From positions 1-34,275 of the IMG/VR virus record IMGVR_UViG_3300025759_000329: a stretch of DNA of 34,275 bases; one strand, written 5' to 3'. Each line of letters begins with the position of its first letter. Position 1 is the stretch's first letter. The position numbers were made by a program, and so were the translations under genes. Of this stretch, positions 4,045 to 33,133 are shown one piece after another. Source of the stretch: a virus. The notes under the pieces were generated by a model that was given only the letters and a program-made list of their open reading frames with translations, was not told the DNA's origin and ran no database searches.

Positions 4045-4536
4045 TCACTTTGTTTCGTCATCGCCAACCTCATGCAGTTCCGGAAGCAGCGTCACGTCGA
4101 ACACGTAGCTTTCTTTCGCGTTACCGTCTGCGCTTCCCATACGCGCCAGATACTCGTGCAAGTGCAGCTTACCCTCCCGCAATAACCGTTGCATCATCCA
4201 GAGGCCCGCATATCGCACCGTGCGATGCTCTGGATAGCGCACGTCGAACACAATCATTATCTCCGGGTACAACTTCGCGTACCGCCGCAAGTCTTTCCGA
4301 TTGATCGACACAGCGTTGCGCGGATCTATCCCCCAAAACTCCATCGACTTCCGCCACGGCGTTGTGATTGTCTTTAGATCGCACGGCCCCTGCATCACCA
4401 TGTCGTACGTGAATGGATCCCCGTCCTTGTCCGGGTTGCGCTTAATCTTCACCCGGTCAAACCTGCGATCCAGGAACACGCGCTCCAGCTCCTCGCCGTG
4501 CTTGCACCACCAAGCTTTATCTTGATTTGATACCAT
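4045..4536 (-). CDS. Hypothetical protein, possible PD-(D/E)XK-like fold, 163 aa
   Basis: The ORF starts MVSNQDKAWWCKHGEELERV. A possible nuclease-like core is E(16) in EELERVF, YDMVMQG, then CDLKTI (a D-x-K pair), followed by an alternating strand/helix region ending in EIMIVFDVRYPEH. That order resembles compact PD-(D/E)XK proteins, but the key residues are inferred and no family is recognised with confidence. It overlaps the upstream 74-aa gene by 20 bases and belongs to the early operon. Confidence 0.75.
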   Translation of the reverse strand: MVSNQDKAWWCKHGEELERVFLDRRFDRVKIKRNPDKDGDPFTYDMVMQGPCDLKTITTPWRKSMEFWGIDPRNAVSINRKDLRRYAKLYPEIMIVFDVRYPEHRTVRYAGLWMMQRLLREGKLHLHEYLARMGSADGNAKESYVFDVTLLPELHEVGDDETK

Positions 4537-4741
4537 CGCGTTTCTCCAGCTCGTACTTCCTCGCCAGTATTAGCCTTGTCTCATTCTCTGTCCATCGCGG
4601 CGCAACTCGATCTGCAAATTCACCGTTAGGCAACCCCAACACTTTCCGCCGATTTGCGAACCCGTACAACTCGTCAAGAGATGATACAGTTGCCAGTTTT
4701 CTCTCTAACTTCACCAACTGGTCATTCCCGTCTTTGGACAT
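4517..4741 (-). CDS. Small hypothetical protein, 74 aa
   Basis: The ORF starts MSKDGNDQLVKLERKLATVS and is charged, probably all-helical and soluble. The middle has GFANRRKVLGLPNGEF and the end WTENETRLILARKYELEKR, which could be a small DNA-binding helical protein, but this is a guess. Its only Shine-Dalgarno candidate (AGGGG, seven bases before the ATG) lies in one arm of a perfect 18-bp palindrome, so translation is likely controlled by RNA folding or by a protein bound there. Confidence 0.7.
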   Translation of the reverse strand: MSKDGNDQLVKLERKLATVSSLDELYGFANRRKVLGLPNGEFADRVAPRWTENETRLILARKYELEKRDGIKSR

Positions 4742-4745
4742 TAGG

Positions 4746-4763
4746 ACACCCCTATAGGGGTGT
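4746..4763 (-). promoter_or_regulatory. 18-bp perfect palindrome covering a ribosome-binding site
   Basis: ACACCCCTATAGGGGTGT is its own reverse complement and ends four bases before the ATG of the 74-aa gene. Further imperfect symmetry (AGG on one side, GTCCT on the other, offset by two bases) extends it to about 4743-4768. As RNA it would sequester the AGGGG Shine-Dalgarno; as DNA it is a good dimeric operator. Confidence 0.6.
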
Positions 4764-4800
4764 GTCCTGACTGTCCAAGATTGACCACCTTAAGACATAC

Positions 4801-4828
4801 CATGTCCAACTCATGTCCAACCATGTCC
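4801..4828 (-). repeat. GGACATG direct repeats (iteron-like)
   Basis: The heptamer CATGTCC (GGACATG on the minus strand) occurs at 4801, 4812 and 4822, spaced 11 and 10 bases, close to one helical turn. Related GGACA cores occur at 4773-4777 and 4763-4767 beside the palindrome. The last copy overlaps the stop of the primase-helicase gene. The arrangement resembles iterons or cooperative protein-binding sites next to a replication gene. Confidence 0.5.
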
Positions 4829-6591
4829 TAACTCCTCGCTAACTTATTGTTCTTAATGATAAACTTATAGTCATCAATGAGCTTCTTGATGTCCCGATCC
4901 GCCTGCCTTTGTGACCTACCTGTCTCTATCGCCACATTGGCTTTTAGGACACTCCTGGACACGTATTTTTCGCCTTCTGACGCCACCAATTTGTCGTATT
5001 CCTCCCAGATCACGTCCATTGAATCTCGCTCGTTTGCACTTGGCGGATCTGTCTCCTCCAGCACGATACTGGTTGTCTCCTGCATGTCATCCGTCAGTAG
5101 ATCGACGCTCACTTGCATGAACGCCATCTTCGCTGGCTCTGGCGCATCCTTCATTTTGGTGAATTCCACGGTTGTCATAAAGTCGCCCACCTTCTCGATC
5201 CTGAACTCACAATCCAGTGCACCCAGAAGCGCGGAGCTGCCTCGTGCGCGCTGCTTTTCTTGCAGGCCAGTGTGGTGCGCCATGAGCACAGTACACCCAA
5301 ACTCATCCTTCAGACCGTCGCACGCCGCAATATATAAATTCATGTCTTTGGTGCTGTTCTCATCCGCGCCCATAGCCCGCGCCAATGTGTCGATTACAAT
5401 AAGCCCCGGCTGCCCGTACTCTTCCACCATCCCGGCGATTGTCTTGTGCAGCTCGTCCACTTGCGCTTCGTCGCTAAACACCACCGCGCGGTTAGACTTG
5501 AAGAACGGCAGGTCATCCAGTGGCGTGTCGTGCACCTTACTCCACGCTCTACAGCGTCGCACGAAACCGTTATGCCCTTCCCCGGCTATGTAGAACACCG
5601 ACGCCTGCTTTACCTTGCGCCCGTGATAGTCTTTGCCTGACGCAATACTGAGCGCCATGTCAAGCATCACAAATGTTTTACCAGCCGCTGGCGCGCCAAA
5701 CCCTGCCGCAAGTGCGTGCTGCTCCAGGATTCCGTCAATGTGCCACTCCGGACGCTTTAGCTCCAGTGCGCCAATTTTACTGAACAGCTCTTTCTTTTGA
5801 CCGCCGCGCAGTATTTGCTTACGCACCTCCGCCAAACCCTTGGTAGCGTGCACGTCGTTCCAATCTAATCCCGGACGTGACGGCATGACGTACTGCAAGC
5901 CCGTTGCCTTGGCGGCTTCTATGCCTTTCTCGTCGTTGTCTGCGGCGATGATTAGCCTGACGTTTGGTCTAACTTCCTGAATTGCCGCGACTGCTTTCGG
6001 TAGGTTTCCTGCGTCTAACGCAAACACGACAGGCACTCCCATAGCCTCGCTAACGCTACACCCAGTAGCCCAACCCTCCGTCACGTAGCAAACACCATCC
6101 AGCGGGCCGTTTATGACGCTAAACGCGCCCTCCTTTTCCATGCCTGAGCTGAACCGTTTTTTACCGTCCGGCATGATCGTCTGCGTGCCGACGCTTTTGC
6201 CTTGCGCGTTGATAATGCGGATCACCAGCATGTCGTCGTTCAACATGGCGCCGTTTAACGCAACGCCCTTCCGTTCGTGGTATGCCTTTGGCGCCACGTC
6301 TGAGAACGGGTTGCTCAATGTCGCGCTCAGGTCAGGCCAATCGTTATTCTTTTGCCCTTTTACGGGCCACACGCAATCCTCCTCCAGGATCGTGCGTATG
6401 TCCTCAAAACTGCAACCCTGGTTGCAATTAAACTTAACCTCGTTATTAATATTGGATATATAAAATCTGTCTCTACCTGAGCACTGTGGGCAAGGGCCGT
6501 TGTAGTGGTCTTTGCCCGTTTTTTTGAGATTGTATCTTGTGATTATGCGCGGCGCGAACTCATCCCAATGCGCCTTTGGAAAATCGGTCAT
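4828..6591 (-). CDS. Primase-helicase (zinc finger, Toprim, RecA-like ATPase), 587 aa
   Basis: This is a replication protein that combines a primase-type front half with a RepA/DnaB-like ATPase. The start MTDFPKAHWDEF has GGGAG just upstream; an earlier ATG at 6609 is less likely. A zinc finger uses C34, C37, C56 and C60. The Toprim core has VTEGWATG (E172) and AADNDEKG (D218/D220). Walker A is GAPAAGKT (299-306) and Walker B GLIVIDTLARA (396-406), followed by MAHHTG and RGSSALLGA. The last ~60 residues look like a winged helix. No DNA polymerase accompanies it, so it probably recruits the host replisome. Confidence 0.92.
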   Translation of the reverse strand: MTDFPKAHWDEFAPRIITRYNLKKTGKDHYNGPCPQCSGRDRFYISNINNEVKFNCNQGCSFEDIRTILEEDCVWPVKGQKNNDWPDLSATLSNPFSDVAPKAYHERKGVALNGAMLNDDMLVIRIINAQGKSVGTQTIMPDGKKRFSSGMEKEGAFSVINGPLDGVCYVTEGWATGCSVSEAMGVPVVFALDAGNLPKAVAAIQEVRPNVRLIIAADNDEKGIEAAKATGLQYVMPSRPGLDWNDVHATKGLAEVRKQILRGGQKKELFSKIGALELKRPEWHIDGILEQHALAAGFGAPAAGKTFVMLDMALSIASGKDYHGRKVKQASVFYIAGEGHNGFVRRCRAWSKVHDTPLDDLPFFKSNRAVVFSDEAQVDELHKTIAGMVEEYGQPGLIVIDTLARAMGADENSTKDMNLYIAACDGLKDEFGCTVLMAHHTGLQEKQRARGSSALLGALDCEFRIEKVGDFMTTVEFTKMKDAPEPAKMAFMQVSVDLLTDDMQETTSIVLEETDPPSANERDSMDVIWEEYDKLVASEGEKYVSRSVLKANVAIETGRSQRQADRDIKKLIDDYKFIIKNNKLARS

Positions 6592-11313: not shown

Positions 11314-11529
11314 CTATGAGTTAAACGCTGCGGCAAGCGCAATCTTCTTTGCCTCCGCAAGAGTTTTTGGGAAAGCTAAGTCTTTAACTACATCTCCTAA
11401 ATCTTCAGTGACTGCGTAAAATCCGCAATAATGCTTACAGTCTTGAATGCTAATATTAGAGTCTGGAATGCGCCATGCGCCATCTTCAATCTCTTCAAAC
11501 TCTGGTGCTTCATATACAAATTGTGTCAT
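11314..11529 (-). CDS. Small hypothetical protein with duplicated N-terminus, 70 aa
   Basis: The gene starts MTQFVYEAPEFEEIEDGAWR. Its first 28 codons are identical, base for base, to the start of the gene just upstream (11526-11783). After that the sequences diverge completely; here the unique part is QDCKHYCGFYAVTEDLGDVV and a helical tail. Its ATG overlaps the upstream stop (ATGA). The acidic shared segment may be a targeting or interaction module. Confidence 0.7.
   Translation of the reverse strand: MTQFVYEAPEFEEIEDGAWRIPDSNISIQDCKHYCGFYAVTEDLGDVVKDLAFPKTLAEAKKIALAAAFNS
11446..11529 (-). repeat. 84-bp perfect direct repeat, copy 1 (gene start)
   Basis: These 84 bases match 11700-11783 without mismatch and encode codons 1-28 of the 70-aa gene. 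The match stops exactly at the ATG on one side and after codon 28 (Ile) on the other. The copies are 254 bases apart. Confidence 0.95.
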
Positions 11530-11783
11530 GTGTCTAAACCTTCCCAATCTGTGATAAACTCAGTGACGAATTGTCGTTGCGCGGCGGTTAAATCATCGTG
11601 CAATATGGCTTCTTGTGCATCCCATTCCGCGGGCAAGTTCTCGCGGTCAAGAAATGCCGCCCATTTGTTGCAAAGGTTATCAAAGGTTATTAATTCCACA
11701 ATGCTAATATTAGAGTCTGGAATGCGCCATGCGCCATCTTCAATCTCTTCAAACTCTGGTGCTTCATATACAAATTGTGTCAT
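11526..11783 (-). CDS. Small acidic early protein, first gene of early operon, 85 aa
   Basis: The gene starts MTQFVYEAPEFEEIEDGAWR with an excellent ribosome-binding site (AAGGAGGA, seven bases upstream). It is the promoter-proximal gene of the early block. The body (DNLCNKWAAFLDRENLPAEW and onward) is acidic and helical. The first 28 codons are duplicated in the next gene. Being first, acidic and strongly translated suggests an early host-interaction role, which is inference. Confidence 0.75.
   Translation of the reverse strand: MTQFVYEAPEFEEIEDGAWRIPDSNISIVELITFDNLCNKWAAFLDRENLPAEWDAQEAILHDDLTAAQRQFVTEFITDWEGLDT
11700..11783 (-). repeat. 84-bp perfect direct repeat, copy 2 (gene start)
   Basis: This is the second copy of the 84-bp repeat, encoding codons 1-28 of the 85-aa gene. 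Bases flanking the repeat differ from copy 1 on both sides, so the repeat boundaries are sharp. Confidence 0.95.
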
Positions 11784-30694: not shown

Positions 30695-33133
30695 TTACCT
30701 AAATATATACGCTTTTCCGCTAGACGTACTGCCAGCGTCATCTTCCGCATAAGCACCAACTATGGCATAACTGTCTGAGATGGATACGCTGCGGCCAAAT
30801 AAATCGCCTGAGCTTGTACTATAGGCGCTAGGGTTGTCTAGCGTATGAAGCAGAGAGCCAGTGGATGCGTTAAATATGTAGGCTTTTCCGCTAGCCGATC
30901 CGCCAGCGTCATCTTCAAAATAAGCACCAACTATTGCATGGGTATCTGAGATAGATACGCTATAGCCGAAATTATCGCTTGCGCCTGTGTCATAAGCACT
31001 AGGGTTATCTAACGTATGAAGCAGAGAGCCAGTAGACGGATCAAATATGTAGGCTTTTCCGCTATTACCTCCGCTAGCGTCATCTTCTTGATAAGCACCA
31101 ACTATTGCATAACTGTCTGAGATGGATACGCTAAAGCCAAATCGGTCGTTTAAGCTTGTACTATAGGCATTAGGGTTATCTAGCGTATGAAGCAGAGCGC
31201 CAGTAGACGGGTTGAATATGTAAGCTTTTCCGCTAGACGATCCGCCAGCGTCATCTTCAAAATAAGCACCAACTATTGCATAACTGTCTGAGATGGAAAC
31301 GCTGATGCCAAATAAATCGTTTGCGCTTGTGCTGTAAGCATTAGGGTTGTCTAGCGTATGAAGCAAAGCGCCAGTAGACGGGTTGAATATGTAGGCTTTT
31401 CCGCTATTACTTCCGCCAGCGTCATCTTCTAAATAAGCACCAACTATGGCGTAACTGTCTGAGATAGATGCGCTATAGCCAAACCTGTCGTCTGCGCTCG
31501 CGCCGTAAGCGTTAGGGTTGTCTAACGTATGAAGCAAAGCGCCAGTAGACGGGTTGAATATGTAGGCTTTGCCGCTATCACTTCCGCCAGCGTCATCTTC
31601 TTGATACGCGCCAACTATTGCATAACTGTCTGAGATGGATACGCTAAAGCCAAATACATCGTTCGCGCTTGTGCTGTAATCATTAGGGTTGTCTAGCGTA
31701 TGAAGCAAAGCGCCAGTGGACGGATCAAATATGTAGGCTTTTCCGCTAGACGTACTGCCAGCTTCATCTTCCGCATGAGCGCCAACTATTGCATAACTGT
31801 CTGAGATGGATACGCTGCGGCCAAATGAATCATCCTGTGAGCCTCCATATTGAGAGTTTGTTACATTGTTTAATGTGTATTTGTAATTGAATGAGCTATC
31901 ATATACATAAGCCTTGCCGCTAGAAGTTCCCAAAACGTCATCTTCTTGATAAGCACCAACTATTGCACAACTGTCTGAGATAGATACGCTAAAGCCAAAA
32001 TAATCATCTTGGCTTGTGCTGTAAGCATTAGGGTTGTCTAACGTATGAAGCAGAGAGCCAGTGGATGCGTTAAATATGTAGGCTTTTCCGCTAGACGATC
32101 CGCCAGCGTCATCTTCTAAATACGCTCCTACTATAGCATAACTGTCTGAGATGGATACGCTAGCGCCGAAATTATCGCCTGAGCTTGTACTATAGGCGCT
32201 AGGGTTGTCTAACGTATGAAGCAAAGCGCCAGTAGACGGGTTGAATATGTAGGCTTTTCCGCTATCACTTCCGCCAGCGTCATCTTCTTGATAAGCACCA
32301 ACTATGGCATAACTGTCTGATATAGATACGCTAATGCCAAATTGGTCATTTGCGCTTGTACTATAAGCATTAGGGTTGTCTAACGTATGAAGCAAAGCGC
32401 CAGTAGACGGGTTGAATATGTAGGCTTTTCCGCTAGACGATCCGCCAGCGTCATCTTCTAAATAAGCACCAACTATGGCATAACTGTCTGAGATGGATAC
32501 GTTGCGGCCAAAATAATCGCTTGCGCTTGTACTATAAGCATTAGGGTTGTCTAGCGTATGAAGCAGAGAGCCAGTGGACGGGTTGAATATGTAGGCTTTG
32601 CCGCTAGACGATCCGCTAGCGTCATCTTCTAAAAAAGCACCTACTATGGCATAACTGTCTGAGACAGATACGCTATAGCCAAAATAATCATCTTGGCTTG
32701 TGCTGTAATCATTAGGGTTGTCTAACGTATGAAGTAGAACGCCAGTAGACGGGTCAAATATGTAGGCTTTGCCGCTATTACTTCCGCCAGCGTCATCTTC
32801 TTGATAAGCTCCTACTATGGCGTAGCTGTCTGAAATAGATACGCTAAAGCCGAAATTATCGCTTGCGCCTGTGTCATACGCACTAGGGTTGTCTAACGTA
32901 TGAAGCAGAGCGCCAGTGGATGCGTTAAATATATACGCTTTTCCGCTAGATCCGCTAACGTCATCTTCTAAATAAGCTCCTACTATTACATAACTGTCTG
33001 AGACAGATACGCTATAGCCGAAATAATCGTTTTGATTATAAGCTGAAAAAGGGTTTGGGTTGTCCAGCGTTTTAATTCTACCAGACCTAAAACCGCCCTT
33101 TATTGCTTGCAGTAGTTTTTTCTTAGTTGCCAT
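30695..33133 (-). CDS. Giant FG-GAP beta-propeller virion protein, 812 aa, 14 repeats
   Basis: After ~37 residues (basic start MATKKKLLQAIKGGFRSGRI, then a strand like the repeat end), the whole protein is 14 copies of a ~57-residue unit: FGxSVSISDSYAIVGAYxED, DAGGSxSGKAYIFNPSTG, then ALLHTLDNPNAYSTSxxD. This fits FG-GAP_2-type propeller blades. Unit 7 (residues 379-436) is divergent, splitting the array into seven plus seven. The last unit is cut after GKAYIFR, and the N-terminal IKTLDNPNPF can supply the missing strand. A two-propeller adhesin is inferred. A chaperone-like gene follows. Confidence 0.88.
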   Translation of the reverse strand: MATKKKLLQAIKGGFRSGRIKTLDNPNPFSAYNQNDYFGYSVSVSDSYVIVGAYLEDDVSGSSGKAYIFNASTGALLHTLDNPSAYDTGASDNFGFSVSISDSYAIVGAYQEDDAGGSNSGKAYIFDPSTGVLLHTLDNPNDYSTSQDDYFGYSVSVSDSYAIVGAFLEDDASGSSSGKAYIFNPSTGSLLHTLDNPNAYSTSASDYFGRNVSISDSYAIVGAYLEDDAGGSSSGKAYIFNPSTGALLHTLDNPNAYSTSANDQFGISVSISDSYAIVGAYQEDDAGGSDSGKAYIFNPSTGALLHTLDNPSAYSTSSGDNFGASVSISDSYAIVGAYLEDDAGGSSSGKAYIFNASTGSLLHTLDNPNAYSTSQDDYFGFSVSISDSCAIVGAYQEDDVLGTSSGKAYVYDSSFNYKYTLNNVTNSQYGGSQDDSFGRSVSISDSYAIVGAHAEDEAGSTSSGKAYIFDPSTGALLHTLDNPNDYSTSANDVFGFSVSISDSYAIVGAYQEDDAGGSDSGKAYIFNPSTGALLHTLDNPNAYGASADDRFGYSASISDSYAIVGAYLEDDAGGSNSGKAYIFNPSTGALLHTLDNPNAYSTSANDLFGISVSISDSYAIVGAYFEDDAGGSSSGKAYIFNPSTGALLHTLDNPNAYSTSLNDRFGFSVSISDSYAIVGAYQEDDASGGNSGKAYIFDPSTGSLLHTLDNPSAYDTGASDNFGYSVSISDTHAIVGAYFEDDAGGSASGKAYIFNASTGSLLHTLDNPSAYSTSSGDLFGRSVSISDSYAIVGAYAEDDAGSTSSGKAYIFR
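30698..33022 (-). repeat. Tandem ~171-bp coding repeats (14 units)
   Basis: The repeats are ~171 bp, in frame, and very similar in DNA as well as protein. Unit lengths in codons are 56, then five of 57, 58 (the divergent unit), six of 57 and a final partial of 34. Several unit junctions recur at distance (for example the PSAYDTGASDN junction between units 1/2 and 12/13), as expected from recombination within the array. It is coding, not CRISPR. Confidence 0.92.

Follow-up and report, generated by a model that had tools for sequence, protein, structure and literature searches.

A putative phage replication origin with exchangeable iterons and a one-sided hairpin downstream of a RepA-family primase-helicase gene

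The DNA analysed here (the window) is one stretch of 34,275 bases from a virus, in which the large ORFs around an 18-bp palindrome lie on the minus strand, and the element described below is therefore read on that strand. The gene ahead of it had been labelled a primase-helicase from the letters alone, and PHROG and Pfam matches confirmed the label: the protein combines a zinc-ribbon primase, a Toprim domain, an AAA_25/RSF1010-RepA-like helicase (AAA_25 match, E 4.1e-36) and a predicted C-terminal winged helix. In the full-length model (pLDDT 87.6), the helicase domain matched the structure of RSF1010 RepA best (1olo_A; Z 23.5 over 224 residues, rmsd 2.5). The C-terminal domain showed the order H-H-H-E-E both in this model and in a domain-only model (pLDDT 83.3), and its best VIA matches were SAMD1 WH-DNA (Z 10.0) and the archaeal MCM C-terminal WH (Z 9.7 and 9.0); a Foldseek search with the domain returned nothing under E 0.001. 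By its elements and best matches, the modelled domain is a winged helix. None of the ten window proteins that were scanned was named as a separate DNA polymerase, and the 74-aa protein encoded beyond the palindrome had no PHROG or Pfam match. Elsewhere in the window, an 812-aa ORF (30695-33133) holds twelve copies of a 171-nt (57-aa) repeat and probably encodes a fibre-like protein, and two ORFs share at their starts a perfect 84-nt direct repeat (11446-11529 and 11700-11783, 254 nt apart) that resembles a recent duplication.

As predicted, ACACCCCTATAGGGGTGT is an exact 18-bp palindrome; it is also the sole perfect palindrome of this length in the window, which holds no second match to it even at three mismatches. 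Since about 0.13 perfect 18-bp palindromes are expected by chance in 34,275 bases, the palindrome alone carries little weight, and the surprising part is the iteron array that surrounds it. The symmetry, which the original prediction had confined to these 18 bp, extends outward through AGGACA/TGTCCT and then TTGGACA/TGTCCAA, with the surplus bases on one side. The 86-bp gap past the primase-helicase gene contains GGACA iterons and a hairpin of two tiers, in which inverted iterons flank the palindrome, in the minus-strand order TAGGACA, TTGGACA, TTGGACA, a weak inverted copy, and TTGGACA-GTC-AGGACA-(palindrome apex)-TGTCCT-A-TGTCCAA (Table 1). Seven of the 45 GGACA/TGTCC motifs in the window fall within the 101 bases from 4735 to 4835, where about 0.13 would be expected if they were spread evenly. 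The hairpin surplus is a CA at 4763-4764, the register of which is ambiguous within an AC repeat, and the DNA fold of the 56-nt hairpin strand gave z = -3.55. The palindrome is thus the tip of a larger, lopsided DNA element. A promoter and terminator check found no sigma-70-like promoter and no terminator at the site, and the GC skew of the window showed no switch at the hairpin and was uninformative on where replication starts.

Table 1. Features of the element and its neighbours, in window coordinates.
Feature	Position	Strand	Evidence or remark
Direct iteron TAGGACA	4824..4830	-	Sequence, motif enrichment; overlaps the primase-helicase stop codon
Direct iteron TTGGACA	4814..4820	-	Sequence; 10-11 bp from neighbouring iterons
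Direct iteron TTGGACA	4803..4809	-	Sequence
Degenerate inverted iteron (TGTCTTA on minus strand)	4791..4797	+	Sequence; TGTCCTA here in L024 and L026
Outer 5' hairpin arm, iteron TTGGACA	4772..4778	-	Sequence, DNA fold
Inner 5' hairpin arm, iteron AGGACA	4763..4768	-	Hairpin finder: 5'-arm surplus of 2
Apical palindrome ACACCCCTATAGGGGTGT	4746..4763	.	Sequence; same 18-mer in 34 viral stretches vs 3 for control
Inner 3' hairpin arm TGTCCT	4743..4748	-	Sequence, hairpin finder, DNA fold
Outer 3' hairpin arm TGTCCAA	4734..4740	-	Sequence, DNA and RNA folds; overlaps ORF74 start codon
Two more iteron copies within the primase-helicase gene	4946..4961	+	Motif positions
GAACAATAAGTTA, weak copy of the conserved IHF-like site	4840..4852	-	Element common to relatives
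74-aa ORF, LxELxGFANRRxxL family	4517..4741	-	Homologs 3' of the hairpin in 30 of 33 clusters examined
Primase-helicase, 593 aa	4828..6609	-	PHROG and Pfam matches
C-terminal winged-helix domain (residues 530-593), candidate iteron reader	4831..5022	-	Structure models

Relatives were collected by using the primase-helicase and the small protein as queries against viral contigs (one scan being the best 80 of 599 stretches). At least 132 loci had a primase-helicase match, and the 130 with a stop codon and at least 250 nt beyond it formed 43 clusters at 90% helicase identity. A hairpin downstream of the primase-helicase gene was present in 34 of the 43 clusters; the nine without one were a distant subclade of seven, together with L019 and L021. 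For the commonest 6-mer close to the stop codon, enrichment reached p<0.05 in 29 of the 34 hairpin clusters, versus 0 of 9 hairpin-free clusters, a division that was made after the data were seen. The iteron motif itself varied by clade (TTGGACA, GCGGGACA, AGGACA, CGGACA, GGAAGGA, AGGAAAA, ATAGGAA, CGTACCA, GTATGAA, AATGTTA, CGTAACA and ATTATTA, among others). Across relatives, which include many phages and prophages, the layout is kept while the iteron sequence exchanges freely. The element was also found in the cultured phages CRP-406 (iteron GGCTGGAAA), PB15 (TGGTTCA) and 1N2-2 (CGGTACA); CGphi29 has GGGGACA iterons and a less clear hairpin, and Caenibius p1, a 38-kb circular plasmid record with phage genes, carries copies of TGCGGAAG after an AAA-family ATPase gene. 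In L019 and L021, a VapE-type helicase replaces AAA_25 beside a primase N-terminus and neighbours much like those of L022, and GTGCGCA repeats precede the small gene, a natural swap of helicase plus iteron. In Oceanospirillales strain Hp36 (L191, L197 and L202), near-perfect CTCGTC-type repeat stems of about 30 bp, far longer than the phage hairpins, lie right after the primase-helicase gene.

The polarity of the hairpin was examined in 48 regions (the 43 clusters and five named records) with a finder that required an apical and a basal stem of at least 4 each, a loop of 2-5 and a score of at least 7. These rules were tightened after data had been seen and before the 48-region counts were made, and were applied unchanged to the later bacterial-genome set; earlier multi-bulge and one-bulge finders had often picked iteron-iteron pairs over the apex, and the one-bulge version gave a 3' surplus for L068 and L035. 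A hairpin was found in 38 regions and none in 10. Among the 38, a surplus of 1-3 nt lay on the 5' (primase-helicase-side) arm in 31, on the 3' arm in one and on neither in six (binomial p 1.5e-8). These counts were left as the finder gave them, with an iteron pair picked in CRP-406 and in the Caenibius record and L134 missed; by eye, CRP-406 has an apex hairpin with one surplus base. In the set from bacterial genomes (the best 80 of 181, of which 76 were counted, the others lacking a stop codon, having too little sequence or being duplicates), a hairpin followed the primase-helicase gene at 55 of 76 loci, whereas of the remaining gene ends in these loci 35 of 172 had one. The surplus was 5' in 35 of these 55 hairpins, 3' in 8 and absent in 12, and the 35 control hairpins were divided into 11, 6 and 18, respectively. 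At the apex, CCTNNAGG was present in 21 of the 31 hairpins from the 48-region set. The outer stem used all four types of Watson-Crick pair, which indicates variety and is not proof of covariation, as the finder demands pairing. In 6 of 38 hairpins, a G-T or T-G pair occupied the position just beyond the stem. Random mismatches would give roughly one in six, and this lack of a G-T excess gives no indication of RNA.

The apex recurs beyond these loci. The exact 18-mer was present in 34 viral stretches, compared to three for a control palindrome with the same letters reversed and the same composition; many of the 34 are related and several were already in the discovery set, and they are not 34 independent cases. 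In all 34, the flanks lengthen the stem by 4-8 bp one way, provided that an AC surplus is permitted, and by 0-1 the other way. The iterons around it differ (TTGGACA, CGGGACA, CGGTACA, CGGCACA, TGCAACA, CGTAACA and CGTGACA). A primase-helicase match was found in 24 of the stretches, the surplus being oriented along the strand of that gene in 24 of 24, with the palindrome located 50-211 nt past its stop codon in 23 and at 1,798 nt in the exception, L236. In L236, a different primase N-terminus (PHROG 3022/15962 type) is fused to the RepA-like helicase and the 18-mer lies 1.8 kb further on, an arrangement that ties the apex to the helicase half and not to the primase. Among the ten stretches without a primase-helicase match, L254 and L256 resemble truncated relatives of positive loci. 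The other eight (L228, L234, L235, L237, L240, L244, L248 and L255) have iterons and no recognised primase-helicase, and in three of them (L234, L240 and L248), whose records measure 27-34 kb, searches using the helicase alignment, AAA_25 or VapE found no match; because of these eight, the apex element can accompany another or an unseen initiator. The same apex was found with CGTGAC iterons in a Parachlamydia MAG (L196).

Many hairpin-bearing loci also have, among or next to the iterons, a AAACAATGACTTA- or AATCAATGGGTTA-like element that shares the strand of the gene and agrees with the IHF consensus, WATCAANNNNTTR. The fit to WATCAANNNNTTR at hairpin loci was a mean of 1.32 mismatches versus 1.92 in shuffled sequence, with 0 of 40 replicates as low, and at hairpin-free loci 2.11 versus 1.65. 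A looser IHF-like pattern was found on the gene strand in 19 of 34 hairpin clusters, on the opposite strand in 1 of 34, and in one of the nine other clusters. The window's own copy has two mismatches to WATCAANNNNTTR and is weak, not being significant alone.

Iteron similarity among relatives was compared with similarity along the primase-helicase. With the core controlled for, it was not significantly related to the C-terminal domain (partial Mantel r 0.107, p 0.11), and the winged helix was accordingly rejected as the sole iteron reader; with the C-terminus controlled for, it did follow the core (partial Mantel r 0.457, p 0.0005). In sliding windows, it tracked residues 260-520 best, with r up to 0.66 in region 301-400, and tracked the zinc-ribbon N-terminus least (r 0.09-0.24). 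Since iteron similarity follows the helicase region best, the helicase half probably matters for the choice of iteron.

The original prediction had offered two readings of the palindrome. One, a symmetric DNA element that binds protein and lies just behind the primase-helicase gene, is broadly supported; the other, an RNA hairpin that hides the Shine-Dalgarno sequence and start of the 74-aa gene and thereby acts as a translation switch, found no such support. In the window, the palindrome does end 4 nt ahead of the ATG at 4741, but AGGGG (4749-4753, minus strand), which had been placed at that distance, is 7 nt ahead. Both lie inside a predicted RNA stem (z = -3.54), the hairpin there offers no start candidate besides this ATG, and in the window's own clade an RNA hairpin could mask the start. 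This arrangement looks incidental. The window's own cluster is the only one with a sole ATG candidate right at the hairpin and SD-like bases in the stem; in L048 and L088, a GTG at the hairpin is an alternative to ATGs further on. A homolog of the small gene, a family with the core LxELxGFANRRxxL, follows the hairpin in most clusters examined (Table 1), and its product is perhaps a replication cofactor; among named phage genomes, CRP-406 was the only match to this family. In most relatives, however, its start lies about 20-60 nt past the hairpin, often with an SD-like sequence of its own (as in L004, L024, L026 and L072, with the ATG 23-27 nt past it), and in L040 and L041 the gene is 533 nt from the helicase stop codon, near which the hairpin stays. 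Relatives that lost the symmetry and kept the start had been named as evidence against a switch; what we found is the reverse, symmetry kept and start moved. ATGTCC is kept after the hairpin in L004 and L024 although it is not the start there, which fits a DNA site. The occurrence of iterons in both orientations and the absence of a G-U excess likewise fit DNA rather than an RNA switch, the 18-mer forms a hairpin apex beside unrelated genes, no Rfam family matched at gathering score anywhere in the window, and the hairpin is not linked to a regulated start in relatives. With the start of the small gene moving relative to the hairpin, a translation switch was rejected as the general function, and we regard it as highly improbable; an effect on translation in the window's cluster is possible and cannot explain why the element exists.

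Three further readings treat the element as a DNA site. An operator array, bound by a dimeric repressor or activator that controls transcription downstream of the primase-helicase gene, would fit the intergenic copies of a single short motif in direct and inverted orientation, and in L234 the element lies ahead of a gene block on the strand along which its surplus points. A simple dyad, however, leaves unexplained both the mostly one-arm surplus and the single apex common to many iterons, and with no sigma-70-like promoter at the site we consider an operator as the main function improbable; an operator role (autoregulation) could coexist with origin function. To a packaging (pac/cos) or other terminase-recognition site we give only a very slight chance: a terminase small subunit gene is found at a distance of 1.2 kb in the window, and L235 and L234 also have one near the 18-mer, but the element keeps its place behind the primase-helicase gene in 34 clusters and, among the loci counted from bacterial genomes (from the best 80 of 181), in 55 of 76, and iteron similarity correlates with similarity in the helicase half, a comparison that did not include terminases. 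The attC site is a recombination hairpin with extrahelical bases that is recognised as a single strand. The one-arm extrahelical bases found here resemble hairpins of this kind and would suit a recombination site recognised in this way; the usual neighbour of the element is nevertheless the primase-helicase, no partition or matching recombinase gene was seen beside it, and such a site, or a centromere/segregation-type iteron site, has in our judgement the slightest chance of all.

We propose instead that the element is a putative phage replication origin located just downstream of its own initiator gene, which we consider quite probable, because a repeat array, an IHF-like site and a single hairpin after an initiator-type helicase gene are the look expected of one. 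Counting against this reading are the distant seven-cluster subclade of primase-helicases, in which a coding gene follows directly and no such element is present, and, in the bacterial-genome set (best 80 of 181), the 8 reversed hairpins and 21 hairpin-free loci. Also counting against it are the GC skew without a switch at the site, the weak IHF-like copy of the window, the iteron similarity that does not track the C-terminal domain with the core controlled for, and the eight 18-mer stretches in which no primase-helicase was recognised. In the mechanism that we infer, the primase-helicase would bind the GGACA iterons, probably with the help of a DNA-bending host protein at the IHF-like site, would melt the region and would load as the helicase. 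The lopsided hairpin would then form on one exposed strand, its polarity determining which strand or direction is used, and the primase domain of the same protein would synthesise the first primer at the hairpin for a host polymerase, in the manner of RSF1010 RepB' at ssi stem-loops. The iterons would thus serve recruitment, and the hairpin strand-specific priming by the fused primase. More tentatively, and with more doubt than confidence, we suggest a widespread, unrecognised class of phage origins, in which freely swapped iterons are combined with a portable apex (ACACCCCTATAGGGGTGT or CCTNNAGG) and a one-arm strand code is read as ssDNA by a RepA-family helicase-primase, setting the direction of replication. 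If the origin reading is true, the sequence signature would show, for many uncultured phages and prophages with a RepA-family primase-helicase, where the origin lies and how it is oriented, the relatives would provide a natural matched set of initiators and iterons for studying how such initiators choose DNA, and the hairpin would be a test case for strand-specific recognition at a dsDNA phage origin.

An iteron origin beside a helicase gene is of a known kind; a polar hairpin with a conserved apex and changing iterons is unusual, and we did not find it described. No copy of CCCCTATAGGGG occurred in the text of the searchable literature, and the origin class was not described in the literature searched, in both cases a body of text mostly without subscription papers. 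A term search of the CRP-406 paper (PMC12629253) gave no mention of primase, repeat or hairpin, and the portions consulted of PMC7145576 and PMC2647930 contained no description of this hairpin-iteron element. Known systems nevertheless share parts of it. The helicases of SaPI Rep and SCCmec Cch2 belong to other families than this primase-helicase, and phage P4 alpha has an SF3 helicase and an ori at which no such hairpin is known. As at iteron origins, short direct and inverted repeats lie beside the putative initiator gene in the window and in relatives, and, as in SaPI and SCCmec, the repeats are directly downstream of a helicase with a modelled C-terminal domain of DNA-binding type. According to parts of PMC7581432, the origin of a SaPI follows the rep gene directly and is recognised via the C-terminal domain of the protein, and the C-terminal domain of SCCmec Cch2 binds direct repeats downstream of its operon; these same parts mention neither a polar surplus nor a shared apex. 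Portions of PMC4234260 describe for phage P4 alpha protein a Toprim primase and a helicase with a winged-helix origin-binding domain, a build like that predicted here, and for pRN1 a stem-loop downstream of the primase-helicase gene that is needed for replication. In pRN1 and phage BIP-1, the primase-helicase next to this stem-loop likewise ends in a winged helix and has the stem-loop on its 3' side (PMC4234260, in part), but the stem-loop is about 100 nt long, is without iterons, and accompanies an archaeo-eukaryotic primase and an SF3 helicase. In RSF1010 (IncQ), as set out in sections of the same paper, RepC is the iteron-binding protein and RepA the helicase that unwinds, and exposed ssi stem-loops are where RepB' primes. 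The likeness to RSF1010 oriV lies in the RepA-family helicase, for which RepA is the best structural match, and in the iterons and short stem-loops. The stem-loop found here is polar and might serve for priming. In contrast to the three separate proteins and two ssi sites of RSF1010, with its distinct RepC and RepB', the present system has one protein, with the Toprim primase fused to the helicase, and one hairpin built from the iterons themselves.
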